Assembly: GCF_001518815.1 (NCBI RefSeq)
Contig: NZ_CP013987.1
Span: forward strand, 1,777,001 to 1,841,000
From: Pseudomonas oryzihabitans
GTDB taxonomy: Bacteria; Pseudomonadota; Gammaproteobacteria; Pseudomonadales; Pseudomonadaceae
Direction: 5' to 3'
DNA length: 64,000 nucleotides
Shown here: one piece after another, positions 12,086 through 62,345 of the stretch
Layout of the letters: every line of letters begins with the position of its first letter
Position numbering within the stretch: position 1 is the stretch's first letter
Notes under the pieces: generated by a model
Databases searched by the model: none
The model's input: the letters and a program-made list of their open reading frames with translations, nothing else
Told to the model about the DNA's origin: nothing
Position numbers and translations under genes: made by a program

Positions 12086-12241
12086 GAAGGTGTTCACGAG
12101 CTCGCGAGCTAGAGACAAACAAGGCGAAAATGCCTGAGGAAGCGGAGTTTACGAATTGTAAATGAGCATTCCGACGGGGCTGGCCCTCCAGGGCATTTTC
12201 AGCACAGTTTGGCCGACGCCCAGCGGATTGTGAGCAGCTTC
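12086..12241 (-). repeat. Structured dispersed repeat, copy 1 (inverted relative to copies 2 and 3)
   Basis: About 156 bases with near-matching ends (GAAGGTGTTCAC ... GTGAGCAGCTTC). Inside are the shared blocks GCGAGCTAGAGACAAACAAGG, GGAAGCGGAGTTTACG and TGTAAATGAGCATTCCGA, and an inner pairing of GAAAATGCC with GGGCATTTTC. A short loop pairs TTTAC with GTAAA. It begins at the base after the yegS stop codon and ends 25 bases before crtZ. Confidence 0.85.
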
Positions 12242-12266
12242 CAAGCAGGTGGCTGCGGAGGTAACG

Positions 12267-12794
12267 TTGGAATTACTGATCAATGCGGGAATCGTGCTGG
12301 CGACCGTGGCGGGTATGGAAGCCTTCGCCTGGTGGTCGCACAAGTACATCATGCACGGCTGGGGGTGGGGCTGGCATGAATCCCACCATCGCCCGCGCAC
12401 CGGCTGGTTCGAGAAGAACGACCTCTACGCCATCGTCTTCGCCGGCCTCGCCATCCTGCTGATCGCCCTCGGCAATGCCGGTTACTGGCGCCTGCAGTGG
12501 ATAGGCGCGGGCATGACGCTCTACGGCCTGCTGTACTTCATCGCCCACGATGGTCTGGTGCACCAACGCTGGCCATTCCGCTACGTTCCGCGCAATGGCT
12601 ATCTGAAGCGCCTCTATCAGGCGCATCGCATGCACCATGCGGTGGATGGTCGAGAGGGCTGCGTGTCCTTCGGCTTCCTGCTGGCGCCGACCACGCAAAA
12701 ACTCAAGCAGCAGCTGCGTGAGATACACGGTGGCGCGCTGGATTCCTCGCGCGAACGCAAGGCGCGGGACCAGGCTGAAGAGGGCGTGGAGTAG
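12267..12794 (+). CDS. crtZ: Beta-carotene hydroxylase CrtZ
   Basis: 175 residues. The four histidine clusters of the di-iron hydroxylase family are all present: HKYIMHG, HESHH, HDGLVH and HRMHH. Hydrophobic helices around them fit an integral membrane enzyme. It hydroxylates beta-carotene at C3 and C3' to give zeaxanthin. A TTG start at 12267 is chosen because GGAGGT lies 6 bases upstream and the product then begins at the usual CrtZ N-terminus; an upstream GTG at 12249 would bury that site. The sequence is close to Pantoea-type CrtZ. It faces the rest of the crt cluster. Confidence 0.95.
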   Translation: MELLINAGIVLATVAGMEAFAWWSHKYIMHGWGWGWHESHHRPRTGWFEKNDLYAIVFAGLAILLIALGNAGYWRLQWIGAGMTLYGLLYFIAHDGLVHQRWPFRYVPRNGYLKRLYQAHRMHHAVDGREGCVSFGFLLAPTTQKLKQQLREIHGGALDSSRERKARDQAEEGVE

Positions 12795-12801
12795 GAGAGG
12801 G

Positions 12802-12824
12802 CTGCGCCTCCGAGGGAGGCGCAG
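12802..12824. terminator. Hairpin between crtZ and the convergent gene
   Basis: Perfect 10-bp stem CTGCGCCTCC / GGAGGCGCAG with a 3-base loop in the 37-base gap between the two convergent stop codons. There is no T-run, so it may act as a bidirectional stop or an RNA-stabilising hairpin. Confidence 0.55.
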
Positions 12825-12831
12825 TGGGGTA

Positions 12832-13368
12832 TCAGGCGACGGCGGGGGTGTCGTAGGCGGCGAACAACGAGTGTGCATACTGGCTGCGCTCGCTTTCGTT
12901 GCGCAGCAGATCGATGAATTCCTTGGCGGGCGGATTCAGGGTTCCAGCCTCGGCGGCGGTGACCACCTGAGCCTGTTCACCCGCGGCCAGATCAGCGAAG
13001 CCCGCACCGAGACGCTCGGTGCAGTAGGCATCCACCACGGTCAGGCCATCACGCAGCAGGTCGCGCAGATTGGCGCCCTGTTGCACCTGCACCTGATCGT
13101 CGAAGGGATCGATGATGTTGGGGCGATCGCCATGGGCATAGGGCGTGAGCATGTGGCGGTCGATGAATTCGGGCAGGCGGGTATCGGCCTGTTCGCTGTC
13201 GGCCCGCAGATGCGCGCAGAGCGCGACCAAAGTGCGCCACTGGGTGGCGGTGAAGAATTCGGGCTTGTAACCGGACTGCGCGTTAGCGGAAAGGCCAAGG
13301 GCAAGTAGTGACGAGGAGGCAGCGAAGCGATCGTGTGAAACAGCCGTTTCCGTCTTGTGCATGTGCAA
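12832..13368 (-). CDS. Gluconate 2-dehydrogenase subunit 3-like protein (solo)
   Basis: 178 residues (first ATG at 13368; a second ATG lies two codons downstream). The segment FFTATQWRTLVALCAHL, then LPEFIDRHMLTPYAHG and later LRDGLTVVDAYC, matches the small gamma subunit of membrane gluconate/sorbitol dehydrogenases (Gluconate_2-dh3). That subunit normally has a twin-arginine leader; here the leader is short and lacks the RR motif, although a hydrophobic SSSLLALGLSANA stretch remains. No GMC-type large subunit or cytochrome subunit is nearby. The role is therefore uncertain. Confidence 0.72.
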   Translation of the reverse strand: MHMHKTETAVSHDRFAASSSLLALGLSANAQSGYKPEFFTATQWRTLVALCAHLRADSEQADTRLPEFIDRHMLTPYAHGDRPNIIDPFDDQVQVQQGANLRDLLRDGLTVVDAYCTERLGAGFADLAAGEQAQVVTAAEAGTLNPPAKEFIDLLRNESERSQYAHSLFAAYDTPAVA

Positions 13369-13534
13369 ATCCCATACTCGTAGGCTGACTACCGGATGCA
13401 GCGCTCTGGCTCATGCATCCATCCATCCGCGGCCCGCGAGGGGTCGCTTTAATCCGACCCGTTTATCGCATAAAAGTTTGCCGTTGGTCATCCCCGAGAT
13501 GCACGCAAATGTGACCGCCGCTCTATGGCGGGCG

Positions 13535-14470
13535 TCAGCGGCGCGGCCGGGTCCAGAGCGCGGCCGGGCGCGCCTCGTTGCGCTGGTGCCGCGAGAGCAT
13601 GGCGCGGGCGGCACCGCGGCAGACCAGACGCAGCTTGTCGGCGGTGCTGGTGCTGACGCGCTGATCCCAGGCGTGAGCGCCCAGTTGCAGCACCTGCACG
13701 CCGATCTCGCGATAGACGCCCCGCGCGGTGGCGATGGCCCAGGCCGAGCGCAGGGGCAGGGCGGCGATGCCCTGGCGCGCCGAGTCGTAGTAGGGCTCGG
13801 CCAGGCGCACCAGGCGCTCGGCCAGTTGCGCCACGGCATCGCGATGCCGGGGTTCGGCCAGTTCGGCGGTGGGGACGCCCAGCTCGTCGAGCCATAGGCG
13901 CGGCAGGTAGATACGCCCGATACGGGCATCCTCGACGATGTCGCGGGCGATGTTGGTGAGCTGGAAGGCCATGCCCAGGTCGCAGGCGCGATCCAGGGTC
14001 TCCTCGTCTTCGGCGCCCATGATGCGCGCCATCATCACGCCTACCACGCCAGCGACGTGGTAGCAGTACTCCAGGGTGTCTTCCAGCTCCACATAGACGC
14101 GCTCCTCGACATCCATGCGAAAGCCAGCCAGGTGGTCCAGCGGCAGCGCCAGGGGAATGCCGTGGCGCTTGACCACCCGTTGGAAGGCAGCAAAAGCCGG
14201 ATCCCGCAGCGACTCATCGCCGTAGGCCGCGCGGGTCAGACGTTCCAGTTCGGCCAGGCGCTCCCGGCCACCCAGGCGGTCGCCCTCGACCTGGCCATGG
14301 CCCAGCTCCTGGCCGTCGATGACATCGTCGCAATGGCGGCACCAGGCATACAGCAGCACCGCGCTCTCGCGGGTCTCTGGCGCGAACAGCTTGGCGGCGG
14401 CGGCAAAGCTCTTGGAGCCGACGGCGATGCTCTGTTCGGCGTGATCGACGACGTCATGGGTGGCAGTCAT
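13535..14470 (-). CDS. crtB: Phytoene synthase CrtB
   Basis: 311 residues. The first aspartate-rich motif is in YAWCRHCDDVIDG (about residues 41-53) and the second in QLTNIARDIVEDA (about 190). The signature region AFQLTNIARDIVEDARIGR matches bacterial squalene/phytoene synthases. The enzyme condenses two geranylgeranyl diphosphates to phytoene. It begins 2 bases after the crtI stop and is the last gene of the leftward operon idi-crtX-crtY-crtI-crtB. Length and start fit the family. Confidence 0.95.
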   Translation of the reverse strand: MTATHDVVDHAEQSIAVGSKSFAAAAKLFAPETRESAVLLYAWCRHCDDVIDGQELGHGQVEGDRLGGRERLAELERLTRAAYGDESLRDPAFAAFQRVVKRHGIPLALPLDHLAGFRMDVEERVYVELEDTLEYCYHVAGVVGVMMARIMGAEDEETLDRACDLGMAFQLTNIARDIVEDARIGRIYLPRLWLDELGVPTAELAEPRHRDAVAQLAERLVRLAEPYYDSARQGIAALPLRSAWAIATARGVYREIGVQVLQLGAHAWDQRVSTSTADKLRLVCRGAARAMLSRHQRNEARPAALWTRPRR

Positions 14471-14472
14471 GG

Positions 14473-15969
14473 CTAACCGTGCTCCTCGAGGATGACGCTG
14501 GCGGTGGCCTTGGCTGAGCCCACCACGCCCGGAACGCCGGCACCGGGATGGGTCCCCGCGCCGACCAGATAGAGGTTGGGAATGACACTATCGCGATTGT
14601 GCGGCCGGAACCAGGCGCTCTGGGTGAGGATGGGCTCCAGGGAGAAGGCCGAGCCGTGGTAGGCGTTCAGCTCCTGGTGGAAATCGGCGGGGGTGAAGAT
14701 GCGCGAGGTGACCAGGTGCTCACGCAGCCCCGGCATGTAGCGCTCTTCCAGGTAGGCGAGGATCTTGTCGCGCAGGCGCGGGCCTTCCACGCTCCAGTCG
14801 ACGTCGGCATTGCCCAGGTGTGGTACCGGCGCCAGCACGTAGTGGGCACTCTGGCCGGGTGGCGCCAGCGAGGGGTCGGTGACGCAGGGCGAGTGCAGAT
14901 AGAGCGAGAAGTCGTCCGGTACGCCGGGGCCCTTGAACAGCTCGTCGATGAGGCCGCGATAGCGCTGGCCGAAGCAGACCATGTGGTGTTCGAGGCCCAC
15001 CGGCGGCCGGCTCAGGCCGAAGTGGATGACGAACAGCGACATGCTGTGTCTCTTGCGCTTGAGGCGGTTGCTCTCGACCACGCCATGGGTGTGGTGACCG
15101 AGCAGCTTGCGATAGGTATGCACCACGTCGGCGTTGGAGGCCACCAGATCGGCCTCGATCTGGCTGCCATCGGCCAGGCAGACGCCGGTGGCGCGATTGC
15201 CTTCAGTGAGGATACGTCCCACCGGCGCGTTCAGCCGTACTTCGCCGCCGAGATCGGTAAAGAGCTTCAGCAGACCCAGGACCAGTTGATGGGTACCGCC
15301 CTTGGCGAACCAGACGCCCCACTTGCGCTCCAGCGCGTGGATCAGCGCATAGATCGAGGAGGTGGCGAAGGGATTGCCGCCCACCAGCAGGGTATGGAAC
15401 GACAGCGCCTGGCGCAGTTTTTCGCTCTTCACGAAACGCGACACCTGGGCGTAGACGCTGCGCCAGGCACTGAGCTGGAGCAGCTTGGGTCCGGCGGCGA
15501 GCATGTCGCTCACCTTGAGGAAGGGCTTGGCGCCCAGGCGGATATAGCCTTCCTCGAACACCGCCTGGGAATAGGCGAGAAAGCGCTGGTAGCCCGCCAC
15601 ATCGTCCGGTTCCAGGGCGCGGATCTGTTCGTCCAGTCGGGCCTGGTCGTTGACGTAGTCGAAACGGGTGCCGTCTTCCCAGCACAGCTGGTAGAAGGGG
15701 CTGACCGGGAGGAGCTCAACATAGTCGCTCATCCGCCGACCACTGAGGGCGAACAGCTCTTCGAGCGCTGAGGGATCGGTGATGACGGTGGGGCCGGCAT
15801 CGAAGGTGAAGCCCGCGTCCTCATAGACGTAGGCACGGCCACCGGGCTTGTCGCGACCCTCGATGAGGGTGGTGGCGATGCCGGCCGACTGCAGGCGGAT
15901 CGCCAGGGCGATACCGCCAAAGCCGGCGCCGATGACGATGGCCCGCTTGGGCACGTTACCTTGGGTCAT
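14473..15969 (-). CDS. crtI: Phytoene desaturase CrtI
   Basis: 498 residues from the ATG at 15969, which overlaps the crtY stop (ATGA). The N-terminal FAD-binding fold is IVIGAGFGGIALAIRLQSAG with EGRDKPGGRAYVYEDAGFTF after it. The C-terminal carotenoid-desaturase signature is GAGTHPGAGVPGVVGSAKAT. CrtI performs four desaturations of phytoene to lycopene. The frame remains open upstream to 16458, but that part lies within crtY on the same strand in another frame and is not coding. The length is normal for four-step bacterial CrtI. Confidence 0.96.
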   Translation of the reverse strand: MTQGNVPKRAIVIGAGFGGIALAIRLQSAGIATTLIEGRDKPGGRAYVYEDAGFTFDAGPTVITDPSALEELFALSGRRMSDYVELLPVSPFYQLCWEDGTRFDYVNDQARLDEQIRALEPDDVAGYQRFLAYSQAVFEEGYIRLGAKPFLKVSDMLAAGPKLLQLSAWRSVYAQVSRFVKSEKLRQALSFHTLLVGGNPFATSSIYALIHALERKWGVWFAKGGTHQLVLGLLKLFTDLGGEVRLNAPVGRILTEGNRATGVCLADGSQIEADLVASNADVVHTYRKLLGHHTHGVVESNRLKRKRHSMSLFVIHFGLSRPPVGLEHHMVCFGQRYRGLIDELFKGPGVPDDFSLYLHSPCVTDPSLAPPGQSAHYVLAPVPHLGNADVDWSVEGPRLRDKILAYLEERYMPGLREHLVTSRIFTPADFHQELNAYHGSAFSLEPILTQSAWFRPHNRDSVIPNLYLVGAGTHPGAGVPGVVGSAKATASVILEEHG

Positions 15970-17132
15970 GGTGCTTCCTTGGACTGAGGGGGACGCGCCA
16001 GCGCAGCATCCAGTGCCGGTTTCAGCGGTACCGGCGGTTTGCCGGAAAGGATGCGCAGGCGATCGAAGGCGGTAAGGCGGCCGGCGTAGAACCGCTGGAT
16101 CAGCGGTTCGCCGAGGCCGTAGAACCGTTGCATGACACGCACCCGGTGTTCGGGGCGGCCAGCGAGAAAGAGCATGCGGTTGAGCAGGCGGAAAAAGCCT
16201 TGGCCCTGCCAGCGGCCCCGGGCATAGTCCCGCAGGATATCGCGCAGCGTCGCACTGGAGGTGAAGGGCTGGGCGGCCAGGTGCTCCGCCAGGCGCACCG
16301 CTTCGGGCAGCGAATAGCCGGTGGTGGGATGGAACAGCCCCGCAGCCAGGCCAATGGGCGCACCGTCCGTGACATTGCGCCAGTAGCGGCCGAGATCGCC
16401 GCCCAGGGTGATGGGCAGCACGCCCTGTTCCTCGCGCAGCACCTCGGCGATTTCCCAATCCTGCTGGCGGGCGTAGTCGGCCAGATGCTGGCGCAGACGT
16501 TCGACGGGAAGGCTTTCGCCGTCGGCGTAGTAGGTGTCTTCGATCAGCAGGCGATCCGGGGCCAGCGGCAGGCTGTAGACGAAGCGATAGCCGTCCAGCT
16601 GATCGACGGTGGCGTCCATCACGATGGGTTCGGCGAGGCCGTGGGGGTGGGTAAGACGCACCTCCTGGCCGAGAAATTTCTGATAGCCGAGCCAGAGCGC
16701 CGGATCGGGTCGCGGCCCCCGGGCGTCGATCACCGCGCCCGCGGCCAGGGTGTAGCCATCGGCGAAGACCACGCCGTCGTCCTGCAGCCGCAACACCTCG
16801 CGGCCCAGCAACAGGCGCTCGGCCGGCAGCCGTGCGCTCAGCACCTCATGGAAGCGCTCGGCGCTGATGCTGGCGTAGCCGCTACCGAGCTGCCGCTGCC
16901 GCTCGGGGAAGCGCACCTCGTAGCCCGGCCAGCGGTGGGCGACCAGGGGCGCGATCCAGGCATGCTGGGGCGCGGTGAGGTCTGGCTCGTGGAAGGACCA
17001 GGTGTGATTGCCACCCAGGCGCGGGCCGGCCTCCACCAGGCGCCAGTCCAGCTCCGGGCGGGTTTCGGCCAGGCGCAGGGCGAGCAATCCCCCGGCCAGG
17101 CCACCCCCGACGATCAGCAGGTCAGGGCGCAT
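15966..17132 (-). CDS. crtY: Lycopene beta-cyclase CrtY
   Basis: 388 residues from the ATG at 17132. The dinucleotide-binding LIVGGGLAGGLLALRL is at the N-terminus, GGNHTWSFHEPDL follows near residue 40, and PTTGYSLPEAVRLAEHL lies in the second half, all typical of CrtY. It cyclises lycopene to beta-carotene at the membrane. The start overlaps the end of crtX by 11 bases and the stop overlaps crtI. A longer frame to 17261 runs into crtX and is not needed. Confidence 0.95.
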   Translation of the reverse strand: MRPDLLIVGGGLAGGLLALRLAETRPELDWRLVEAGPRLGGNHTWSFHEPDLTAPQHAWIAPLVAHRWPGYEVRFPERQRQLGSGYASISAERFHEVLSARLPAERLLLGREVLRLQDDGVVFADGYTLAAGAVIDARGPRPDPALWLGYQKFLGQEVRLTHPHGLAEPIVMDATVDQLDGYRFVYSLPLAPDRLLIEDTYYADGESLPVERLRQHLADYARQQDWEIAEVLREEQGVLPITLGGDLGRYWRNVTDGAPIGLAAGLFHPTTGYSLPEAVRLAEHLAAQPFTSSATLRDILRDYARGRWQGQGFFRLLNRMLFLAGRPEHRVRVMQRFYGLGEPLIQRFYAGRLTAFDRLRILSGKPPVPLKPALDAALARPPQSKEAP

Positions 17133-18390
17133 GATGCAGTCCTCGCCGGGCCAGGCCATCCACCAACCGTGCAGCGGCGGTGGCACCCCCGGCCGCCGCC
17201 GCGATGGGCACGAAGCGTTCGGCCGCCCGGCGATAGCTGGGATCGGCCAGGACCGCGCCAAGGGCCTGGGCGAGGCGTGCCTTGCTGGCTAGCCGCGGCG
17301 CCAGGCAAAGGCCGGCGCCGACCCGCTCCAGGCGCCGGGCGATGCCCGGCTGATCGAAGACCATGGGCAGGGCCAGCATGGGTTTGCCGGCCGCTAGGGC
17401 GTCCAGCACGGTATTGAAACCGCCATGGGTGATGACGGCATCGGCGCGGGCAATGGCGGCTTCCTGGGGCGCGAAGTCGGTGACCCAGGTGGCGCCATCG
17501 TCGAGCAGGCGGCGCTCGGCGGTGCCATCCAGCCGCCCGCAGTGGGCGATCAGCACCTGAACGTCCAGCTGGCGACAGGCCTGGGCGACGCGGCGGAACA
17601 GCGGTAGCCGTCCGCCCTGCAGCGTGCCGAAGGAGGCGAAGACGAAGGGTCGGCGCGGATCTATCTCCAGCGCCAGATGCTGTTCGCGAGCCGCCGGCGG
17701 ACGCAGCGGGCCTACCTCGTGGAAGTGGGGCGGCGGCGCACGGCGGGGAAAGTCGAAGCCCGGCAGACACTGGCTCAGCTGCAGATAGGGCGAGAAGCAG
17801 TCATCCAGGGTACGCCGCTCGCCAAGACCGAAAGCCTGGGCCTGGCGCTGGATCACCTTGCCCTGGCCACGCATGATCAGGTCGAACACCTGGGTGGCGC
17901 CCTGGACGATCTGCCGCTCCCGCTCGCTGCCAGGATAGGCGAAGGGCAGGGTGGGCAACGGCAGGTGGGGTTCGCGATTCATCGGCACGGCGCACGCCAA
18001 GGAGGCATAGGGCAGGCCGAGATGCTCTCCAAGTAGGCCGCCGGCCGGCTCCATCTGATCGGCGATGAGGCAATCGACGCCCAGGTCACGCAAGGCTCCC
18101 GGGCCTTCGCGGCAGAACAGTTCGGTATTGCGTGCCATGTCGGCGATCACCCCGAACACCGACCAAGGCTTGCTGCTGGCGGTACGGGCGAGCAAGGGGC
18201 CCAGGCTGCCACGCGGATGGCTGGTCGCACCTATGGCCTGGAAGTCGATCCCGGCCGGAAGCGGCCGGTCGCCGACCTCCGCCTGGTGCAACAGGGTGAC
18301 CCGATGACCAAGCGCGACCAGCGCCTCGCCCAGCACTAGATGGGTGGACAGGTGGCTCGGCAGCGGCGGCGAGATCAGGGCGACATGCAT
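17122..18390 (-). CDS. crtX: Zeaxanthin glucosyltransferase CrtX
   Basis: 422 residues from the ATG at 18390; a GTG at 18426 would add 12 residues and overlap idi. The family start pattern HVALISPPLPSHLSTHLVLG supports the shorter form, although neither start has a clear ribosome site. The C-terminal UDP-sugar region WVTDFAPQEAAIARADAVIT followed by HGGFNTVLDALAAGKPML is the glycosyltransferase family 1 donor site. It adds glucose to the hydroxyls of zeaxanthin. It is preceded by idi and followed by crtY in one operon. Confidence 0.92.
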   Translation of the reverse strand: MHVALISPPLPSHLSTHLVLGEALVALGHRVTLLHQAEVGDRPLPAGIDFQAIGATSHPRGSLGPLLARTASSKPWSVFGVIADMARNTELFCREGPGALRDLGVDCLIADQMEPAGGLLGEHLGLPYASLACAVPMNREPHLPLPTLPFAYPGSERERQIVQGATQVFDLIMRGQGKVIQRQAQAFGLGERRTLDDCFSPYLQLSQCLPGFDFPRRAPPPHFHEVGPLRPPAAREQHLALEIDPRRPFVFASFGTLQGGRLPLFRRVAQACRQLDVQVLIAHCGRLDGTAERRLLDDGATWVTDFAPQEAAIARADAVITHGGFNTVLDALAAGKPMLALPMVFDQPGIARRLERVGAGLCLAPRLASKARLAQALGAVLADPSYRRAAERFVPIAAAAGGATAAARLVDGLARRGLHHAP

Positions 18391-18416
18391 GGCGGCGTCC
18401 GGTCGGGTGTCGGCCA

Positions 18417-19466
18417 CTATGGGCACCGGGCCGAGGTGGCGTCCAGCAGCTCGGCCTGGCGCAACTGCGCCAGATCGGCCGAACCGGTGCAGAAGCAGGC
18501 GATGCGCAGCTGCTCGATCACCACCTGGAAATGCGCGATCACCGCCTCGGTCGACTCGGTAGCACCGGGGAGAGCGGCCGCCGCCTGACCCGCGAGGTCT
18601 GCGCCGAGGCGAATGGCCTTGGCCACGTCGATGCCGTCGCGGATGCCGCCCGAGGCGATCACCGTTGCTTGCGGGCAGGCGGCGCGTACCTGACGCAGGC
18701 TTTCGGCGGTGGGGATGCCCCAGTCGGCGAAGGCTCGGGCGATGGCACGCTGCTGCGCGTCACGGGCGCGCTCGGCTTCCACGGCAGCCCAGCTGGTCCC
18801 GCCCGCGCCCGCTACGTCCAGCACGGCTACGCCCACGTCGATCAGCTGCCGAGCAGCGCGACCGGAGAGCCCGGCGCCCACTTCCTTGACGACGACCGGT
18901 ACGGCCAGATGTGTAACCAGGTTTTCCAGCGCGGCCAGAATGCCCCGCCAAGTGCGATCACCACCGGCCTGTACGGCTTCCTGCAGCGGATTGAGATGCA
19001 CGATCAAGGCGTCTGCCTCGATCATCTCCACCGCCCGCCGCGCCTCGGTGAGGCCATAGCCGGCCACCAGCTGCGCGGCGCCAAAATTGGCCAGCAGCGG
19101 TACGTCCGGCGCCAGGCGGCGCAATTCACCGGTCAGGCCCTGGTCGCCCCCCTGCTGCAGGGCGATGCGCTGGGAGCCGACGGCCAGGGCGATACCCAGG
19201 GCCTGGGCCGCTTCGGCCAGATGCCGGTTGATCAGCGCCGCCCGCTCTGGACCGCCGGTCATGGAGCTGATGAGCAGGGGCGCTGCCAGCGGACGGTCGA
19301 ACAGGCGCGTGCCCAGGTCGACGTCGTCGAGATTCAGTTCGGGCAGGGCGTCATGGGTGAAGCGAAAGGCCTCCAGGCCCGTGGTGACGGCGCTGCGGGC
19401 CTTGTGGGGATCCAGCACGATGTCCAGATGATCGTTCTTGCGGCTTGCCAGTTCCCAATCCACCAT
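18417..19466 (-). CDS. fni: Type II isopentenyl-diphosphate delta-isomerase
   Basis: 349 residues. The N-terminus [11 protein letters not shown], the FMN/phosphate elements [11 protein letters not shown] and AVGSQRIAL, the later [15 protein letters not shown] and the final [15 protein letters not shown] are diagnostic of the FMN- and NADPH-dependent type II enzyme. It interconverts IPP and DMAPP, the precursors used by crtE. It is the first gene of the leftward carotenoid operon, with its ATG at 19466, 135 bases from the divergent crtE start. The same gene type is embedded in Pantoea crt clusters. Confidence 0.95.
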
Positions 19467-19601
19467 GTCTTCTAGAGTCCGCCCTGAATGACCTTTCGTC
19501 GGTCGTTGTGGTCTGGTAGGGGACGACGGGTTCGCTTTGCGAAGACCGAATCCACCGAGGTGCGACCGTTCGTCGGTTCCACATATGGAGTATCTCGACT
19601 C
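19467..19601. promoter_or_regulatory. Divergent promoter region of the carotenoid genes with repeated sites
   Basis: This 135-base gap must hold promoters for the fni-crtXYIB operon and for crtE. Two similar 16-mers lie 74 bases apart in the same orientation, GACCTTTCGTCGGTCG (19490-19505) and GACCGTTCGTCGGTTC (19564-19579), matching at 13 positions. Between them is a perfect palindrome TTCGC-TTT-GCGAA (19531-19543). These are candidate binding sites for a shared regulator. No carotenoid regulator gene such as litR/carH is in the window. Confidence 0.5.
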
Positions 19602-20483: not shown

Positions 20484-20550
20484 GGCGAATTCTCCCGGAT
20501 CTGGCCCTCTAAACCCTGGATAGCCTTTTTCCTGTGAGAGGAGCGTGAAG

Positions 20551-22013: not shown

Positions 22014-22074
22014 TCGGCCACGCCCTACCCGACGAGGTGCCCTTCGCCAGAAGAGGCACTTCGCGTCTTTATCA

Positions 22075-22214
22075 GAGCCCGCCCAACGTCTGCTGCGCGT
22101 CGGCCAAACGGCGTTGAAAAGGCCTTCGGAATGCTCATTTACCATTCGTAAACTCCGCTTCCTCAGGCCTTTTCGCCTTGTTTGTCGCTAGCTCGCGAGA
22201 CGTTGAGCGGGCTC
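22075..22214 (+). repeat. Structured dispersed repeat, copy 2
   Basis: 140 bases bounded by GAGCCCGCCCAACGTC and GACGTTGAGCGGGCTC (15 of 16 bases pair). Inside, GAAAAGGCCT pairs perfectly with AGGCCTTTTC, and TTTAC with GTAAA around a 5-base loop. Shared blocks with copies 1 and 3 include TGCGCGTCGGCCAAAC and CTTGTTTGTCGCTAGCTCGC. It is opposite in orientation to copy 1 and the same as copy 3. Confidence 0.88.
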
Positions 22215-22239
22215 TTAGAAACCGAGAAGCACCACCGTG

Positions 22240-23073: not shown

Positions 23074-23085
23074 GGATGTAAACCC

Positions 23086-37772: not shown

Positions 37773-37848
<76 letters not shown>

Positions 37849-37889
37849 AATTTCGATTTCGCCTGCGGGGGAAATCGGTAGAAGGTTTC

Positions 37890-37965
37890 GTCCCCTTCGT
37901 CTAGTGGCCTAGGACACCGCCCTTTCACGGCGGTAACAGGGGTTCGAGTCCCCTAGGGGACGCCA
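37890..37965 (+). tRNA. tRNA-Glu(TTC), copy 1
   Basis: 76 bases with CCA encoded; acceptor GTCCCCT/AGGGGAC, anticodon loop CTTTCAC gives TTC. Confidence 0.97.
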
Positions 37966-38005
37966 TATCAGTCACGTATCCCAGACGTGACAAGATGCTG
38001 TACTT

Positions 38006-38081
<76 letters not shown>

Positions 38082-38115
38082 ATTTAGTGATCCGCAAGGG
38101 TCGCACCAGGGTAAC

Positions 38116-38191
38116 GTCCCCTTCGTCTAGTGGCCTAGGACACCGCCCTTTCACGGCGGTAACAGGGGTTCGAGTCCCCTAGGGGACGCCA
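38116..38191 (+). tRNA. tRNA-Glu(TTC), copy 2
   Basis: Identical to copy 1. Confidence 0.97.
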
Positions 38192-38231
38192 TATCGGTCA
38201 CGTATCCCAGACGTGACAAGATGCTGTACTT

Positions 38232-38307
<76 letters not shown>

Positions 38308-38341
38308 ATTTAGTGATCCGCAAGGGTCGCACCAGGGTAAC

Positions 38342-38417
38342 GTCCCCTTCGTCTAGTGGCCTAGGACACCGCCCTTTCACGGCGGTAACAGGGGTTCGAG
38401 TCCCCTAGGGGACGCCA
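38342..38417 (+). tRNA. tRNA-Glu(TTC), copy 3
   Basis: Identical to copies 1 and 2, 226 bases after copy 2. It is followed by a strong terminator. Confidence 0.97.
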
Positions 38418-53894: not shown

Positions 53895-53915
53895 GTTCAT
53901 GTCGCATTTTACCAC
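53895..53915 (-). promoter_or_regulatory. Possible ArgR site in the argF promoter
   Basis: TGTCGCATTTTACC (53900-53913) resembles one half of the Pseudomonas ArgR pattern (TGTCGC-N8). It is about 115 bases upstream of argF. The second half is weak. Confidence 0.3.
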
Positions 53916-53969
53916 CATCGCACGCTGGCACCTTTTCAGGCCTGCCAACGCGCGGTGGGGTAGAGCTCG

Positions 53970-53993
53970 GGAGCACTCCGGACAGAGTGCTCC
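53970..53993. terminator. Terminator-like hairpin after the DUF3597 gene
   Basis: Perfect 9-bp stem GGAGCACTC / GAGTGCTCC with a 6-base loop; no clear T-run. It is 8 bases beyond the stop of the leftward gene. Confidence 0.55.
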
Positions 53994-54001
53994 GGCAGGG
54001 C

Positions 54002-54406: not shown

Positions 54407-54650
54407 GGAGTTCTCCTGGGGTCTTGGATCAGGCGCATCACGTGGCGCCTACCCTTAACCTGACCACAGCCTCGCCGCCAAAGTTTGCCAAGTGGCCTAC
54501 CGAATCACCGCCGGCGGAGCGAACGGCCTTGAATGAGCGTGGTCGATTGGCAGGTCGAGCCGCGCCTGTTTCGGGCTGGACGTCGCGGAAATCCCGGCGT
54601 TCCACCGGCCTTTCCGTTACAATCGTCCCACCGTATTAGCGAGGTGCATC

Positions 54651-54977
54651 GTGGAAATCATCGATACCATCAAAGACCAGATTGCCAACAATCCTGTGCT
54701 GCTCTACATGAAGGGTTCGCCGAACGCGCCTCAGTGCGGCTTCTCTTCCCGTGCCGCTCAGGTACTGATGGCCTGTGGCGAAAAATTCGCCTATGTCGAT
54801 ATCCTGCAGAATCCGGAAATCCGCGCCAATCTGCCCAAGTACGCCAACTGGCCGACCTTTCCCCAGCTGTGGGTTGGCGGCGAGCTGGTCGGCGGCAGTG
54901 ATATCCTGGCCGAGCTGTACGAAAAGGGTGAGCTGCAGACCCTGATCAAGCAGGCCGTGGAGCAGAAGGACGCCTGA
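54651..54977 (+). CDS. grxD: Monothiol glutaredoxin Grx4
   Basis: 108 residues from a GTG at 54651 with GAGGTGCATC upstream. The CGFS active site is in APQCGFSSRAAQVL and WPTFPQLWVGGELVGGSDI forms the glutathione site. Grx4 carries and transfers [2Fe-2S] clusters and takes part in iron regulation. It sits next to bfr and bfd, consistent with an iron-homeostasis neighbourhood. It ends at a bidirectional terminator. Confidence 0.96.
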   Translation: MEIIDTIKDQIANNPVLLYMKGSPNAPQCGFSSRAAQVLMACGEKFAYVDILQNPEIRANLPKYANWPTFPQLWVGGELVGGSDILAELYEKGELQTLIKQAVEQKDA

Positions 54978-54991
54978 GTCCTCCGCCACAA

Positions 54992-55018
54992 AAAAAGCCC
55001 GCATCATGCGGGCTTTTT
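54992..55018. terminator. Bidirectional terminator between grxD and bfr
   Basis: AAAAAGCCCGCA-TCA-TGCGGGCTTTTT, a perfect stem with A and T runs on the two sides, in the 58-base gap between convergent genes. Confidence 0.92.
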
Positions 55019-55035
55019 CATGGGCGTCTGCTCGA

Positions 55036-55512
55036 TCAATCGTCGTCGTGCATCTGCGACTGGATGTAGTTCTCGATCCCGACGCTGGCGATGAGGCTCA
55101 GCTGGGTTTCCAGCCAATCGATGTGCTCTTCCTCGGATTCGAGGATGCTCTTGAGCATGTCGCGGCTCACGTAGTCCCGCACGCTTTCACAATAGGTGAT
55201 GGCTTCACGCAGGTCAGCCACGGCGCTGATCTCCAGGCGCAGGTCGCACTGGATCATCTCCTGGGTGTTCTCGCCGATCATCAGCTTGCCCAGATCCTGC
55301 AGGTTGGGCAGGCCTTCCAGGAACAGGATGCGCTCGATCAGGCGATCGGCGTGCTTCATCTCGTCGATGGATTCCTTGTACTCGTGATGACCCAGCTTGC
55401 GGATACCCCAGTCGTTGTACATCCGCGAGTGCAGGAAATACTGGTTGATGGCCACCAGTTCGTTGCCGAGGATCTTGTTCAAATGCTGGATGACGGTGAT
55501 ATCGCCTTTCAT
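55036..55512 (-). CDS. bfr: Bacterioferritin (heme-binding, BfrB type)
   Basis: 158 residues. Ferroxidase ligands are seen in [20 protein letters not shown] and [20 protein letters not shown], where Met52 is the heme ligand, and in [14 protein letters not shown]. It forms the 24-mer iron store. The adjacent bfd gene supplies the ferredoxin that releases iron from it. A terminator separates it from bfd, so it has its own promoter. Confidence 0.96.
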
Positions 55513-55659
55513 GGCCGGACCTGCAAATCGGGTGGGATTGCCGGCAGTCTGAGCGTGGAAGGGCCCTTTGTCAAAAGCTTAAGTTGTTGAAAAATCGACG
55601 AAAATCGAACGGTAATCGAAAGCTTTTCCATCCTTTCCGTAAGCGTTTGATTAGACAAT

Positions 55660-55691
55660 AAAAAAGCCGGACACAAGGTCCGGCTTTTTTT
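55660..55691 (-). terminator. Rho-independent terminator of bfd
   Basis: AAAAAGCCGGAC / GTCCGGCTTTTTT stem with a five-base loop and T runs, 14 bases past the bfd stop. Confidence 0.9.
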
Positions 55692-55704
55692 GCAGGGATG
55701 TCGC

Positions 55705-55920
55705 TCAGGCGCGCGGGACGTCCAGGGCGTAGGCGAGCTGCTGGGCACCATGCAGCTCACCGAGGGTTTCCTTGACGACCTGCTTGGCGAGGCAGGCGCA
55801 CTTGCCGCACTGGGTGGCGCAACCCGTGCTTTCCCGGACTTCCCGATAACTGCAGCAGCCTTCATAGATGGCTTCGCGAATATGCTTGTCGGTCACGCCA
55901 CGGCAAAGACACACGTACAT
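55705..55920 (-). CDS. bfd: Bacterioferritin-associated ferredoxin
   Basis: 71 residues. The [2Fe-2S] cysteines are in MYVCLCRGVTDKHIRE (Cys4, Cys6) and ATQCGKCACLA (Cys38, Cys41). Bfd binds bacterioferritin and reduces its iron core so that iron is released. It is expressed at low iron; a Fur-like box lies 42-60 bases upstream of the start. The peroxiredoxin gene found between bfd and rnt in P. aeruginosa is absent here. Confidence 0.96.
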   Translation of the reverse strand: MYVCLCRGVTDKHIREAIYEGCCSYREVRESTGCATQCGKCACLAKQVVKETLGELHGAQQLAYALDVPRA

Positions 55921-55961
55921 GGATCGCCTGCTGTATGAGTGGAGGTGCCGCCAAAGCTAAT

Positions 55962-55980
55962 GACAATGAGAATGATTGTC
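55962..55980. promoter_or_regulatory. Fur box upstream of bfd
   Basis: GACAATGAGAATGATTGTC matches the 19-base Fur consensus at 15 positions and overlaps the expected bfd promoter. Confidence 0.7.
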
Positions 55981-56038
55981 AAAGTTGTAGGCGGCAAAAT
56001 CTCATTAAAGGCGTCCTTGGCGACAGGCGGTTGTCAGA

Positions 56039-56716
56039 TCAGTCCAGGTCGACCCAGCCGCCCATTTCCCGCCACCGATTGACGATGCCGCAAAACAGCT
56101 CGGCGGTCTTCTCGGTGTCGTAACGGGCCGAGTGGGCTTCACGATTGTCGAACTCGATGCCGGCCGCCTGGCAGGCCTTGGCCAGTACCGTCTGACCATA
56201 GGCCAGACCGGCCAGGGTGGCGGTATCGAAGCTGGAGAACGGGTGGAAGGGGTTGCGCTTCAGGCCGCAGCGCAGCACCGCGGCATTGAGAAAGCCCAGA
56301 TCGAAGCTGCTGTTATGGCCGACCAGGATGGCTCTCTTGCAGCCGCTGGCCTTGAGCGACTTGCGTACACCCTTGAAGATCTCGCTCAGCGCCTGCTCTT
56401 CGCCCACTGCCATGCGCAGCGGATGGTCGAGCTTGATGCCGGTGAACTCCAGCGCCGCAGCTTCGATATTGGCGCCAGCGAAGGGCTCGACGCGGAAGAA
56501 ATAGGTGTGATCCGGATAGAGCACTCCTTCCTCGTCCATGGCCACGGTGGTGGCGGCGATTTCCAGCAGGGCATCGGTGGCGGCGTTGAAGCCGCCGGTC
56601 TCGACGTCGATCACCACCGGCAGATAGCCGCGGAAGCGGCGCGCCATGGGGATGCGCGAGTCGGACATGGGCTGGCTGGCATCCAGTTCGTCGCTGAAGG
56701 TCTCATCCATGCTCAT
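56039..56716 (-). CDS. rnt: Ribonuclease T
   Basis: 225 residues. DEDDh exonuclease motifs are [20 protein letters not shown] (Asp, Glu), [14 protein letters not shown] (Asp) and [15 protein letters not shown] (His, Asp). RNase T trims the 3' ends of tRNA and other stable RNAs. Its start overlaps the pyrC stop (ATGA at 56713-56716), so it is co-translated with pyrC. The length is normal for Pseudomonas. Confidence 0.96.
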
Positions 56717-57756
56717 ACGCTCACCTCCAGACGCCAGCGCAAGGTCTCGCCCGCGCGCAGGGGAACCACCTCGTGATCGCCAAAGGGGAGGGAGGCCGGC
56801 GCCTGCCAGTCCTCGCGCACCAGGGTCACGGTCTCGGTGTTGCGCGGCAGGCCATAGAAGTCAGGGCCGAAGTGGCTGGCGAAGCCTTCCAGGCGGTCGA
56901 GGGCGTCGCGGCTCTCGAAGGCTTCGGCATAGAGCTCGAGCGCACCGTAGGCGGTATAGCAGCCGGCACAACCGCAGGCCGCTTCCTTGGCGTGACGGGC
57001 GTGGGGCGCCGAGTCGGTGCCGAGGAAGAACTTGGGGTTGCCGCTGGTGGCGGCGTCTAGCAGGGCGCTCTGGTGGGTGTTGCGCTTGAGGATCGGCAGG
57101 CAATAGAAATGCGGCCGGATGCCGCCCACCAGCATGTGGTTGCGGTTGTACAGCAGGTGATGGACGGTGATGGTGGCACCCACGTTGGCCGGGGCCTCGC
57201 GCACGAAGGCAGCGGCGTCGCCCGTGGTGATGTGTTCGAACACCACCTTCAGCGTCGGGAAGCGCTGGACGATACGCACCAGGTGCTCGTCGATGAATTT
57301 CTTCTCGCGGTCGAAGACGTCCACCTCGGCATGGGTGACCTCGCCATGCACCAGTAGCGGCAGGCCGATCTCGGCCATGGCTTCCAGGGTCGGGAAGAGG
57401 TTGTCGAGGGAGGTGACCCCGGAATCGGAGTTGGTGGTGGCTCCGGCCGGATAGAGCTTGGCGGCATGCACGAAACCGCTGGCCTTGGCACTGCGCACGT
57501 CTTCCGGGCTGGTGCGATCGGTGAGGTAGAGCACCATCAGCGGCTCGAAGCGGCTGCCCACCGGACGTGCGGCCAGGATGCGCTCGCGGTAGTCGGCGGC
57601 CTGCTCGGCATTGCGCACCGGTGGTACCAGGTTGGGCATGACGATGGCGCGACCGAATTCGCGGGCGGCGTCGGCGACGGTCTGCGGCAGGGCGGCGCCG
57701 TCGCGCAGGTGAATGTGCCAGTCATCGGGACGGGCAAGGGTGATCCGGTCGGTCAT
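56713..57756 (-). CDS. pyrC: Dihydroorotase
   Basis: 347 residues from the ATG at 57756. Metal ligands are visible in [13 protein letters not shown], the carboxylated Lys in [27 protein letters not shown] and LGTDSAPHA. It closes the dihydroorotate ring in pyrimidine synthesis. It heads a pyrC-rnt operon and is divergent from motY. A 20-codon longer frame lacks a ribosome site. Confidence 0.96.
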
Positions 57757-57898
57757 ACGGGATTCCAGGCTGCGGGAAAGTGGGGAAATGCTACCGGAAA
57801 AGGGGGTAGCCGGCACCCGTGCAGCGGGATCGCGCTCAAGTTTTCCGCGCCCTTGACCGATATGAAGCCCAGGTACTTTTTTCTTTCCGGAGCTCGAC

Positions 57899-58849
57899 GT
57901 GCGCCCGCGTTACCTCTTCCTTTCCTGTCTGCTGCTCGCCGTTCCGGCCTGGGGGATGACCTTCCAGAGTCGGCTCGAGAGCGTGGAGTGGAAGGTGGAG
58001 GGCGACATCTTCGCCTGTCGGCTGCTGCAGCCCATCCCGCGCTTCGGCAGCGGTGGTTTCCTGCGCCGCGCCGGCGAGGCCACGGTATTCGAGCTGCGCC
58101 CCAACGGTCAGTGGTTGCCGGTGGGCAGCGCCAGCCTCAAGGCCGCGGCGGTGCCCTGGAAGCCGGGCCTTGGCGACATCAGCCTCGGCTCGGTCAAGGT
58201 GGTGGAGGGGGAGCAGGCCCTGACGACCAGCGCGCAGCAGGCTCAGCGCCTGCTGGCGGGATTGATGGAAGGGCGCATGCCGCAGGTCAGTCGGCCGGGT
58301 GCCCTGGATGACCGCGTCGAGGTCCGGCTGCTGCCCGTGCACTTCGAGCCGGCCTACCAGCAGTTCCAGGCCTGTACCCAGAAGCTGCTGGCGGTCAACT
58401 TCGAGCAGATTCGCCATTCCCAGGTCGGCTTCCCGGGCGGTGGCGATACCCTGGACGACAGCGCCAAGGCCAAGCTCGATCTCATCGACGAGTACCTGAA
58501 GGCCGATCCGACGGTCAACCACGTCATCGTCTCGGGCTACAGCGACAACCAGGGCACCCGGCTGGACAATCGCCAGGAATCCCGGCTGCGTGCCATCGCC
58601 GTGATGGAGTACCTGAAGACCAAGGGCTTCCCCGCGGAGCAGATCGAGTTGCGCTTCTTTGGCGAGCAGTATCCGCTCGCACCCAACAACAGCAAGACCA
58701 ACCGGGCGCTCAACCGGCGCGTGACCCTGGTGTTCTCGCGGGTGCCGCCAAGCAGCGAGCCAGCGGCCGCGCCGACCACCAGTACCGCGGCCAATCCGAG
58801 TGAGCCACCGGCGCCGACCCCCGCCCCGCCAGCCAAGCCCAAGGGCTGA
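57899..58849 (+). CDS. motY: MotY-like sodium/flagellar-motor outer-ring protein
   Basis: 316 residues from a GTG at 57899 with GGAGCTCGAC upstream. A signal peptide ([15 protein letters not shown]) leads to a MotY N-terminal domain ([20 protein letters not shown]), and residues 180-275 form an OmpA/MotB peptidoglycan-binding domain ([34 protein letters not shown]). The C-terminal tail is Pro/Ala-rich. It supports the flagellar stator in Pseudomonas. The position next to pyrC matches P. aeruginosa. Confidence 0.92.
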
Positions 58850-58966
58850 TCCGCTGCAACCGCATGTCGCCCAGACATCAGAGTGCGTCGCGCCTCTGTA
58901 AAAGCGGCGATACCACCAGTAGAATTACCGCTTTCCGACTCAATGCAACACACGGGAGCGAACGGC

Positions 58967-60184
<1,218 letters not shown>

Positions 60185-60202
60185 GGGTGGCGACGCCATG
60201 CG

Positions 60203-60229
60203 AAACCCCAGCCTAGGCTGGGGTTTTTT
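60203..60229. terminator. Terminator between argG and the small acidic gene
   Basis: AAACCCCAGCC-TA-GGCTGGGGTTTTTT, a perfect stem with a T-run on the + strand, between convergent genes. Confidence 0.92.
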
Positions 60230-60234
60230 ATGGC

Positions 60235-60414
60235 TTACAGGTCGAAGTCGTACTCGGAGATCTGCCGCTTGAGTCGGCGTTCTTCGAGCATGTCGTCGAT
60301 CAGGCGCCGCTTGGTCAGGTTGGTCTTGCTGACGACGGGTTCCACCGTTTCGGGCGCTTCGCCATCGCTCTCGAAATCGTCGTCTACATCGATATCGCTT
60401 TTGTCTTCGGCCAT
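60235..60414 (-). CDS. Small conserved acidic protein (PA3525-adjacent type)
   Basis: 59 residues from the ATG at 60414 with AGGAGTTACCA upstream. An acidic N-terminal half (SDIDVDDDFESDGEAPETVE) is followed by a basic KTNLTKRRLIDDMLEERRLK segment and EYDFDL end. Such short PA3496-like proteins are found beside nth or argG in Pseudomonas; the function is unknown. The strong ribosome site and the conserved-looking helix make it convincing. Confidence 0.78.
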   Translation of the reverse strand: MAEDKSDIDVDDDFESDGEAPETVEPVVSKTNLTKRRLIDDMLEERRLKRQISEYDFDL

Positions 60415-60556
60415 TGGTAACTCCTGCAAGGCTGGACAGGGTCACACGCCAGTCATCGACAGGGCTGCGGGACCTTTTCGCGCACCTTATAGCGACAAAG
60501 CAGGGGCTGGTAAAAAAGATTTTTTCAATCGCTGAAGGGCTTTGGTGAGCCCTTTT

Positions 60557-61195
60557 TCAATCGTCCGAGGTTTTTGCCTTGTATTCGCAGAGGTCCTCGA
60601 TGCGGCAACTGCCACAGCGAGGCTTACGCGCCTGGCAGACGTAGCGGCCATGCAGGATGAGCCAGTGGTGGGCATCCAGCAGGTAATCCTTGGGCACCAC
60701 CTTGAGCAGCTTGAGCTCGACCACCACCACGTTCTTGCCGGGGGCCAGGTTGGTCCTGTTGCTGACCCGGAAGATGTGGGTATCCACCGCCATGGCGATC
60801 TGCCGGAAGGCCGTGTTGAGCACCACGTTGGCGGTCTTGCGACCGACCCCGGGCAGGGCTTCCAGGGCTTCGCGGGTCTGGGGTACCTCGCCGCCATGGC
60901 GCTCCAGCAGCAGCCGGCAGGTTTCGATGACGTTCTTGGCCTTGCCGTTGTAGAGGCCGATGGTCTTGATGTACTCCGACAGCCCTGCCACGCCCAGGTC
61001 GAGGATGGCCTGGGGCGTGTTAGCCACCGGATAGAGGCGCGCGGTGGCCTTGTTGACGCTGACGTCGGTGGCCTGGGCGGAGAGGATCACCGCGATCAGC
61101 AACTCGAAGGGCGAGGCATAGGCCAACTCCGTCTTGGGGTCGGGATTGTCCTCGTGCAGACGACGAAAGATTTCCAGGCGTTTGGCGGCGTTCAT
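60557..61195 (-). CDS. nth: Endonuclease III
   Basis: 212 residues. The helix-hairpin-helix [19 protein letters not shown] carries the catalytic Lys, [11 protein letters not shown] the Asp, and [17 protein letters not shown] holds the four cysteines of the [4Fe-4S] cluster (C-x6-C-x2-C-x5-C). It removes oxidised pyrimidines in base-excision repair. Its start overlaps the rnfB stop (ATGA at 61192-61195). The length is typical. Confidence 0.97.
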
Positions 61196-62166
61196 CGGGC
61201 GGTTCGCTCTTCGAGGGCGGCGAGATGAGAGGCGGCCTGCTGCGCGGCGCTGCCCAGCGCTTCGAGTTGCTCGCGCTGTTCGGCGGTGGGCGTGGCCCCA
61301 AAGGCGCGTTCGGCCTTGGTCAGCTGGGCACGCGCCAGGGTGGCGGCGATCCGCGCCTGCTTGAGGGCGGCGGGATCGGTAGCGACCGTCGCCAGGGCAG
61401 GTGCGCTGGCAGTGACGGGCGCTTGCTGCGCCTTGTCCAGGGCCGCCTGGGCCTGCTGGGCGGCTTCACGCAACTGCTGTACCTGGGTTTCCAGCGCGGG
61501 CGTGCCGTATTGGACCAGTTGCCGTTCGGCCTTCTGCAGGGCGACACGCGCCATGGCGGCAGCGATCTTCAGCGGCTTGAGCGAGGATTCCGCCGTGGCG
61601 GGGGGCTCTGCAACCGTGGCGGTCGCAGGTGGCACCTGACGGCGCTGGCGCTCGGCGTCCAGCCGTTCGCGGTCCCGCTGCAGGCGTGCCTGGCGGGTGT
61701 CGAAACGGCTGCGGTAGTACTGCGCGCGCTGACGTTCAGCCTGGCGATCGACCGGTGCCGGTACCGCCACCAGATCGATGCAGTCCACCGGACAGGGCGC
61801 CAGGCACAGCTCGCAACCACTGCATTCGCTTTCGATGACCGTGTGCATCAGCTTGGCCGCGCCAAGTATGGCGTCGGTGGGGCAGACCTGGATGCACTTG
61901 GTACAACCGATGCACTCGGCTTCGCGAATCACCGCACGCTGGCTAGGCGTGACCGGATAGGGCGAGTCCAGTGGCAGGGTCGGGCGCTGCAGCAGGGCCG
62001 AAAGCTCGACGATGGTGGCTGCGCCCCCGGGCGGGCACTTGTTGTGCGCCTCGCCCGCGGCGATGCCGGCGGCATAGGGCTGGCAGCCGGGATGGCCACA
62101 CTTGCCGCATTGGGTCTGGGGCAGCAGGGCGTCGATGGCGGTGATGAGGGTAGCGTGGGCGTTCAT
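61192..62166 (-). CDS. rnfB: RnfB/RsxB-like ferredoxin without membrane anchor
   Basis: 324 residues. The Fe-S cluster domain begins at once with [20 protein letters not shown], then two 4Fe-4S ferredoxin motifs follow ([32 protein letters not shown]). The usual N-terminal membrane helix of RnfB is missing. Residues 145-324 form a long Ala/Gln/Arg-rich region with coiled-coil character. The gene is coupled to nth. The other rnf genes (A, C, D, G, E) are absent between rnfB and nth, so it probably acts as a soluble electron carrier with unknown partners. Confidence 0.9.
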
Positions 62167-62201
62167 GATCAGGGTCGGGGCTGGGGGAAGAACGGCGCCC
62201 T

Positions 62202-62345
62202 GAGAGCCTGCTCAAAGTCGGCTGCGCGTCGGCCAAACTGCGTTGAAAATGGCTTCGGAATGCTCATTTACGCTTTGTAAACTCCGCTTCCTCAGCCATG
62301 TTCGCCTTGTTTGTCGCTAGCTCGCTCGCCTTTGAGCAGGCTCTC
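62202..62345 (+). repeat. Structured dispersed repeat, copy 3
   Basis: 144 bases with perfect 16-base ends GAGAGCCTGCTCAAAG and CTTTGAGCAGGCTCTC. It shares the inner blocks of copies 1 and 2 (TGCGCGTCGGCCAAAC, GGCTTCGGAATGCTCATTTAC, GTAAACTCCGCTTCCTCAG, TTGTCGCTAGCTCGC) and the inner GGCT/AGCC pairing. It lies between the metG 3' end and the rnfB start. Confidence 0.9.

Follow-up and report, generated by a model that had tools for sequence, protein, structure and literature searches.

A palindromic repeat of Pseudomonas oryzihabitans with a conserved hairpin core and ends resembling those of IS5-family elements

Introduction

Miniature inverted-repeat transposable elements (MITEs) are commonly regarded as remnants left by deletion within a single insertion sequence (IS), and as confined to one lineage. 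MITEPsy1 of Pseudomonas syringae pv. phaseolicola is described as a non-coding element with 18-nt terminal repeats similar to those of the IS5-family ISPsy2, that duplicates a 4-nt CTAG/YTAA target and has moved in vivo (PMC3189936). MITEPsy1-like sequences are reported from Pseudomonas, Marinobacter, Klebsiella and plasmid pRSB105 (PMC3189936). The repeat analyzed here is an imperfect palindrome of about 146 bp, present in three copies in a 64,000-nt stretch of the Pseudomonas oryzihabitans chromosome (NCBI RefSeq assembly GCF_001518815.1, contig NZ_CP013987.1, positions 1,777,001 to 1,841,000, forward strand; hereafter the window).

The family is probably a superfamily of MITEs with IS5-like ends, mobilized in trans by IS5-family transposases. 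Mobility as such is strongly supported by empty sites in relatives, target duplications, and ends that match IS5-family elements. The family has the MITE features that were looked for, and movement itself is presumed.

The window copies and their empty sites

A first-pass annotation of the window described three copies of about 150 bp in intergenic gaps. The copies are as described, with the inner blocks quoted for them and with ends that pair within each copy, copy 1 lying on the minus strand. Their intergenic location is also correct, and the insertion point of copy 1 coincides exactly with the stop codon that ends the upstream open reading frame (ORF). All three are flanked on both sides by 3-bp target copies. 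The parts are as follows, elements being given without the target duplication.

12086-12241, minus strand: copy 1 (162 bp including the duplication), carrying an extra inner module
12083-12085, plus strand: target copy of copy 1, TAA, at which the upstream ORF stops (the empty allele has TGA)
12242-12244, plus strand: other target copy of copy 1, CAA, a decayed TNA
12140-12170, minus strand: conserved apex of copy 1, AATGCTCATTTAC-N5-GTAAACTCCGCTT
12175-12191, minus strand: optional inner module of copy 1, about 16 additional bases, limits approximate
22075-22214, plus strand: copy 2
22075-22090, plus strand: left terminal inverted repeat (outer stem) of copy 2, class I
22199-22214, plus strand: right terminal inverted repeat (outer stem) of copy 2
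22072-22074, plus strand: left target copy of copy 2, TCA
22215-22217, plus strand: right target copy of copy 2, TTA
22130-22160, plus strand: conserved apex of copy 2
62204-62343, plus strand: copy 3
62201-62203, plus strand: left target copy of copy 3, TGA
62344-62346, plus strand: right target copy of copy 3, TCG (TAA in the G005 orthologue)
62259-62289, plus strand: conserved apex of copy 3
62192-62200, plus strand: left half of the host hairpin around copy 3, ACGGCGCC followed by C
62346-62353, plus strand: right half of the host hairpin around copy 3, GGCGCCGT

Relatives lacking each copy identify the copies as insertions, and insertion is precise at all three sites. Copy 1 is absent from seven of nine relatives and present in G002. 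In the empty allele a long ORF ends at the same stop codon, and G005 carries an independent, different element (locus L534) on that very codon. Copy 2 has an empty site in eight of nine relatives and a longer form in G005. The site of copy 3 is empty in five of nine near relatives (G003, G007, G008, G010, and G011) and occupied in four, three more distant genus members being uninformative. The empty site is a short hairpin with the loop CTGR, and copy 3 occupies the loop of this GC-rich host hairpin. Insertion into terminator loops was considered as a general rule and rejected: palindromic flanks (score ≥ 8) occur in 4 of 102 and 2 of 103 cases, with controls of 0.7% and 0.6%, respectively, and are rare enough that hairpin-loop insertion of the copy 3 type is not general.

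Extent and architecture of the family

A covariance-model search of the kind proposed in the first-pass annotation finds the family well beyond the window. Model R1, built from 30 copies of the source genome, returns 53 rows, 52 of them distinct, in that genome at E ≤ 0.1; a BLAST search of the 4.83-Mb chromosome with copy 3 as query yields 46 matches at E ≤ 1, fragments of a single copy among them. Matches to R1 at E ≤ 0.001 occur in 30 of 37 genomes searched (source genome included), with hundreds in the genus. Match counts are 52 to 85 in ten members of the genus and 1, 3, and 14 in three others, strand duplicates included and with at most 85 candidates scored per genome. Opposite-strand duplicates were removed before the counts of flanks, targets, IS ends, orthologues, and stop codons, and before the pairing counts in the larger sets.

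As in MITEs, the element is short, non-coding, and multi-copy; model matches span about 125-240 bp. The outer stem of about 17-18 bp is hypervariable, with classes such as GAGCCTGTTCAAAGTCT, GAACCTGTTCACGATCT, TAGGTTCTGTACGAAAAGT, GGCTTTGTCTGAAAAGT, and TAGCAGGCCGTTGAAAAAC, and it reaches 16-20 perfect pairs, forming terminal inverted repeats. Farther inward, the shoulder and the apex, AATGCTCATTTAC-N5-GTAAACTCCGC, are conserved, and the inner stem between them, about 4-5 bp long, is variable. The hairpin core thus conserved is roughly 100 bp long and has fixed unpaired bases, and some copies carry optional inner modules at fixed places. In loci such as L101, L124, and L152, the right inner arm contains long inserts that are rich in G and C and have a recurring sequence, GATTCGCTGGCGCTCACCC...GTTACTCCCGTTGGTCG. 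Among 219 loci, no half cores separated by a gene were found, one altered copy excepted.

No published name for the element was found in the literature searched, and its core strings matched only unrelated papers in full text. An Rfam scan of the window at the gathering score gave no match on the element, and a scan of three loci at a relaxed E-value gave three matches, none of them on it.

Target duplication and turnover

The target-site duplications that the first-pass annotation suggested looking for are present. Class I elements have TNA at 54 of 64 left ends and 45 of 64 right ends, and their two target copies are identical in 27 of 64, compared with 11.4 ± 2.7 after shuffling (0 of 2000 shuffles as high). 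Among elements of other classes, 41 of 161 have YTAR at the same offset on both ends, and 21 of these 41 have identical copies, compared with 12.8 shuffled (3 of 2000 as high). In the remaining 120, no YTAR appears at corresponding offsets. Copies turn over quickly: among the 50 of the source genome, 13 were found to have a counterpart, matched on both flanks, in G009, where 70 of 76 copies were examined. At three sites (L008/L504, L380/L481, and L386/L503) conserved flanks enclose very different elements, a case of replacement or repeated insertion.

Terminal repeats and candidate transposases

Outer-stem sequences of the family recur as the ends of IS5-type elements in genus relatives; these elements measure 835-918 bp and have DUF4096/DDE_Tnp_1 frames, broken in some cases. 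When 430 element ends are compared with seven IS5-type ends and up to two mismatches are allowed, 47, 59, 22, 14, 14, 9, and 2 of them match; no element end comes this close to four further IS ends from these genomes (three of them likewise with DUF4096) or to shuffled ends. In two of the ISs with matching ends, the first ORF matches NCBIfam NF033580 (IS5 family), at 95.6 and 100.9 bits, below the full-length cut-off of 110. An autonomous element with matching ends, a further feature of MITEs, is found in genus relatives and not in the source genome. Compared by eye, the printed IS ends appear to depart from the element past the outer 17-18 bp or so, and for this reason the element does not look like a simple IS deletion.

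The proposed mechanism builds on these ends. The outer 17-18 bp or so of each arm would be a terminal inverted repeat copying the ends of an IS5-family element, and an IS5-family transposase in the cell, present or past, would cut and insert the element in trans. Its target would be TNA for class I ends and YTAR for the other classes, with target duplication.

Nine of 20 distant genomes have DDE_Tnp_1, and some IS ends in distant genomes resemble element ends by eye (L415, L413, L423, and L435), an uncontrolled comparison that serves as a lead. No partner gene emerged beside the copies when frames lying no more than 900 bp from a copy were clustered; by general appearance, the best 40 rows are mostly frames running through the element.

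REPINs, palindromes not known to leave a target duplication, present another model, in which a RAYT (Y1) transposase would move a REPIN-like element. The family is palindromic, intergenic, high-copy, and mostly chromosomal, and the source genome has a Y1_Tnp match. The target duplications and terminal repeats are nonetheless of the DDE kind, and no Y1_Tnp match at E ≤ 0.001 is present in G007, G009, and G010, which have 84, 76, and 85 model matches. With the RAYT gene not found in these three copy-rich genomes, membership of the RAYT/REPIN system was rejected as very improbable.

Placement at stop codons

Insertion at stop codons is frequent and oriented. It was counted in set A3, drawn from four genomes of the genus (50 loci of the source genome, 20 of G006, 20 of G009, and 10 of G002, the last three picked by high score), in which three rows (L385 and two of L386) duplicate positions already covered by another locus; the loci of A3 are L001-L030, L290-L339, and L370-L389. 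Of the 101 copies with sufficient flanking sequence, 70 have a gene that ends within 150 nt of the left end. At this end the stop codon serves as the target copy in 54 of the 70; at the right end it does so in 12 of 65. At least six of the 54 belong to insertions shared by two or three species, orthologues having been counted apart. Left and right stop-codon cases number 19 and 5, and 9 and 3, in the diverse sets.

With equal use of every TNA in the gap, the stop would be expected to receive 37.4 of 68 insertions, so that the enrichment represented by 54 is moderate, and part of it follows from short gaps. Orientation is the stronger signal. TNA targets give 45 left and 4 right stops in the genus set, and 17 and 3 in the diverse sets. 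At non-stop sites, purine to pyrimidine stands at 12 to 10 in the genus set and 19 to 10 in the diverse sets, the latter ratio leaving room for a mild target preference. The two independent insertions on the stop codon at the copy 1 site both have the rarer orientation. Overall gene context shows no clear strand preference (32 co-directional vs 24 anti-directional), and the stop-codon bias appeared only once exact distances were measured. No precedent for this habit was found in the literature searched.

Covariation of the hairpin arms

The paired changes between copies noted in the first-pass annotation are real. In 30 copies of the source genome, 148 alignment cells are changed on both sides, compared with 44.6 after shuffling (0 of 500 shuffles reach 148) and at most 33 with sliding partners, in a MAFFT alignment from which the structure was also derived, which favors true over slid versions. 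In the same copies 90.3% of cells pair (80.9% shuffled) and the covariation score is 0.296 (0.142 shuffled), all slid versions falling well below it; these are figures for cells that share ancestry and are not independent. Across 179 rows from diverse bacteria, most columns of the outer and inner stems use all four Watson-Crick pairs, in alignments whose fitting to the model biases pairing upwards. Even the apex changes in pairs, from TTTAC/GTAAA to CGTAC/GTACG in relatives from another class of the phylum and from AATGC/CCGC to AATCC/CCGG within the class.

These changes are almost purely Watson-Crick. In 43 rows found by model rather than through the apex pattern, matched by R1 or by R2 (a model built from set A4), 89.0% of pairs are Watson-Crick, 1.7% G-U, 3.7% A-C, and 5.6% others, columns paired in fewer than 60% of rows having been dropped. 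By comparison, 19 tRNAs of the same loci show 8.9% G-U, a figure from ARAGORN brackets, which may omit mismatches. A-C mismatches also outnumber G-U in the paired model columns of A3 and A4, 173 to 98 and 173 to 90 (about 2:1), a weak excess that would amount to G-U on the opposite strand; the asymmetry is unexplained. Changes between orthologues show no excess of A-C over G-U (20 and 19). Unpaired positions are conserved as well: 16 of them at 81-100% in the 43 rows, found with a model built from fixed-apex rows, and the T.G at position 31 in 150 of 167 rows. Set A4 was collected by scanning for 20 fixed apex bases, and conservation of the apex there holds by construction.

The first-pass annotation had read the paired changes as a sign of either a folded RNA or a hairpin-dependent mobility mechanism. 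Mobility is borne out by the empty sites, target duplications, and IS5-family ends; selection on RNA is not, G-U being rarer than A-C and far below its level in tRNAs. According to the RNA account, a structured transcript is selected in message 3' ends, where it stabilizes, ends, or tunes the upstream message. Its attractions are a very stable fold (copy 2 folds at -72.9 kcal/mol, z = -7.3, with 0 of 200 shuffles equally good), covariation beyond shuffles, conserved unpaired bases, and an oriented stop-codon placement (left 54, right 12 of 101) that puts one strand in the message. Neither strand, however, shows a G-U excess of tRNA size, so that the G-U tolerance expected of a functional RNA strand is lacking, and the almost purely Watson-Crick pairs do not support this reading. 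The overall strand context is unclear, only 13 of 50 copies were found in common with G009, and the changes between orthologues are mostly single. Selection on a structured RNA is accordingly judged unlikely, and the pairing points to DNA arms.

Orthologous copies bear on how the pairing arises. Ten clean pairs with G009 show 22 single and 4 compensatory changes over 511 pairs, where about 0.15 compensatory changes would be expected, in a sum added by hand from which 3 of the 13 site-matched pairs, with very different elements, were left out. All 13 pairs together have 12 compensatory, 8 other double, and 63 single changes. After insertion, copies mostly decay, with some restored pairing.

Mutation without selection could produce such matching if template switching in the palindrome at replication copied one arm onto the other. 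Matching that is Watson-Crick only, with little G-U or A-C, fits this process, as do the compensatory changes at fixed sites, and it would also explain the joint switch of both ends to a new IS end. Such copying would, however, erase mismatches that are in fact kept, among them T.G at position 31 and the 16 unpaired positions, and most fixed-site changes are single and unrepaired. Template switching is thus an improbable source of the pattern.

Within the MITE interpretation, the paired changes would record lineages that switched both ends together, in the outer stem, or kept the inner arms matched, in the inner stem. The conserved core would be carried across genera and phyla under different ends, and it may help transposition, for instance by drawing both ends close to each other once the palindrome is extruded or in single-stranded form. 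That mobility depends on the hairpin is suggested by the paired changes in stems outside the terminal repeats and by the conserved unpaired bases.

Taxonomic range

Presence is patchy and wide. A scan with 20 fixed apex bases found at least 119 stretches. Among the 80 matches listed are many Pseudomonas groups, Halomonas, Salinicola, Marinobacter, Nitrosomonadales, Methylococcaceae, and Desulfobacterales, along with metagenome-assembled genomes (MAGs) of Bacteroidota (Alistipes, Rikenellaceae, Bacteroidaceae, and others). Several hosts are MAGs, in which binning errors are possible; repeated Bacteroidota-specific variants suggest that binning error is not the sole cause.

Model R2, built from loci of the fixed-apex scan, matches 90 of 398 Pseudomonadota genomes at E ≤ 1e-8, covering 39 of 212 genera, with 56 of the 90 outside the class, in a search with stricter filters and seven candidates scored per genome. 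The apex, with up to five edits, is present in 18 of 20 R2 stretches inspected. The other two, L517 and L518, come from two (G105 and G180) of seven inspected genomes outside the class and have no apex, so that some of the 90 genomes may hold a different hairpin element. These two loci represent another long-hairpin repeat, with ends TAGGGCCTGTTCACAATTG, no apex motif, and a score of about 85 bits with R2.

Plasmid matches are rare (3, 8, and 18 of 72,556 records with three queries), and no annotated feature lies underneath those listed, in a gene table that is incomplete. One query found no match in 50,697 phage records. Eight stretches with the element occur in viral contigs.

Assessment of the proposed mobilization in trans

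Several observations weigh against mobilization by IS5-family transposases as proposed. No transposition was seen to occur, and 263 or more of the 430 element ends lie more than two mismatches away from every one of the seven IS ends. The linked transposase that the first-pass annotation suggested seeking did not turn up: no PF01609 (DDE_Tnp_1) or PF13340 (DUF4096) match was found in the source genome, G002, G003, G007, G008, G009, or G011, which have 52 to 84 model matches. Either the partner has been lost from these high-copy genomes or another protein acts, and the copies of the source genome look like passengers with the driver gone. The inverse pattern occurs in G001, G004, and G012, which have DDE_Tnp_1/DUF4096 genes yet only 3, 14, and 1 matches, arguing against a simple link between copy number and transposase. 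An ordinary MITE, moreover, needs neither a conserved core nor inner-stem covariation. Restored pairing at fixed sites exceeds chance (4 compensatory changes vs about 0.15), and therefore not all covariation is set at insertion. Finally, the orientation bias at stop codons is unexplained, an effect of the sense strand on the message being one candidate.

A broader interpretation is put forward tentatively and is, on present evidence, rather doubtful. One hairpin module would have passed through at least three phyla with its fold and unpaired bases kept and its ends exchanged, movable by whatever IS5-type (possibly IS1182-type) transposase the host has, the hairpin being part of the DDE mechanism. 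In the P. oryzihabitans group, the one-orientation stop placement would be a habit of using safe sites, with the stop codon regenerated.

Many genes in each genome have the element at their 3' ends, and the stop-codon habit, if true, would be an uncommon strategy by which a mobile element spares its host. With a hairpin core that outlives its ends across phyla, it becomes possible to test where terminal repeats come from and what role DNA hairpins play in DDE transposition.

Other features of the window

Two further features were noted. The Rfam scan of the window places a C4 antisense RNA at 2911-2997 (minus strand; 84.8 bits), which presumably marks a prophage region. Six tRNA genes at 37773-38417 (plus strand) form three alternating Ala(GGC)/Glu(TTC) pairs.

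Relation to described elements

The IS5 family, in its IS1031-like and IS5/IS427-like subgroups with their target rules, resembles the element in its ends and in TNA or YTAR targets. Unlike these ISs, the element has no transposase gene, and the likeness seen is confined to the outer 17-18 bp or so.

MITEPsy1, set beside the element by description only, is likewise non-coding, with IS5-family-like ends and a target duplication (PMC3189936). It differs in its length of 100 nt and its six copies in strain 1448A, and a hairpin with paired changes does not figure in the portions of that report available here (PMC3189936). MITEPsy1 and the YTAR classes may share a common origin.

ERIC/IRU, Correia/NEMIS, and RUP are also short, mostly intergenic, MITE-like repeats with long stem-loops (PMC2229807), as are QMITE1 and QMITE2 of Coxiella, which form stem-loops (PMC5896051). 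Their terminal repeats and targets differ from those of the element, and the accessible parts of these reports mention no core common across phyla for any of them (PMC2229807, PMC5896051); QMITE1 is described as having no orthologues in other genomes (PMC5896051).

Within Pseudomonas, the repeats R0-R200 of P. fluorescens are intergenic like the element, some with inverted repeats and with a tail-to-tail bias (PMC2718517). They measure 50-352 bp (PMC2718517) and were compared by description, and the element may be identical with one of them, such as R6 (177 bp). REPINs are palindromic, intergenic mobile DNA of Pseudomonas, like the element (PMC3116915), but have a RAYT partner, for which no match was found in the copy-rich G007, G009, and G010. 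What is new relative to these systems is a hairpin core conserved across phyla under changing ends, which match ISs in the cases seen, together with the stop-codon habit.

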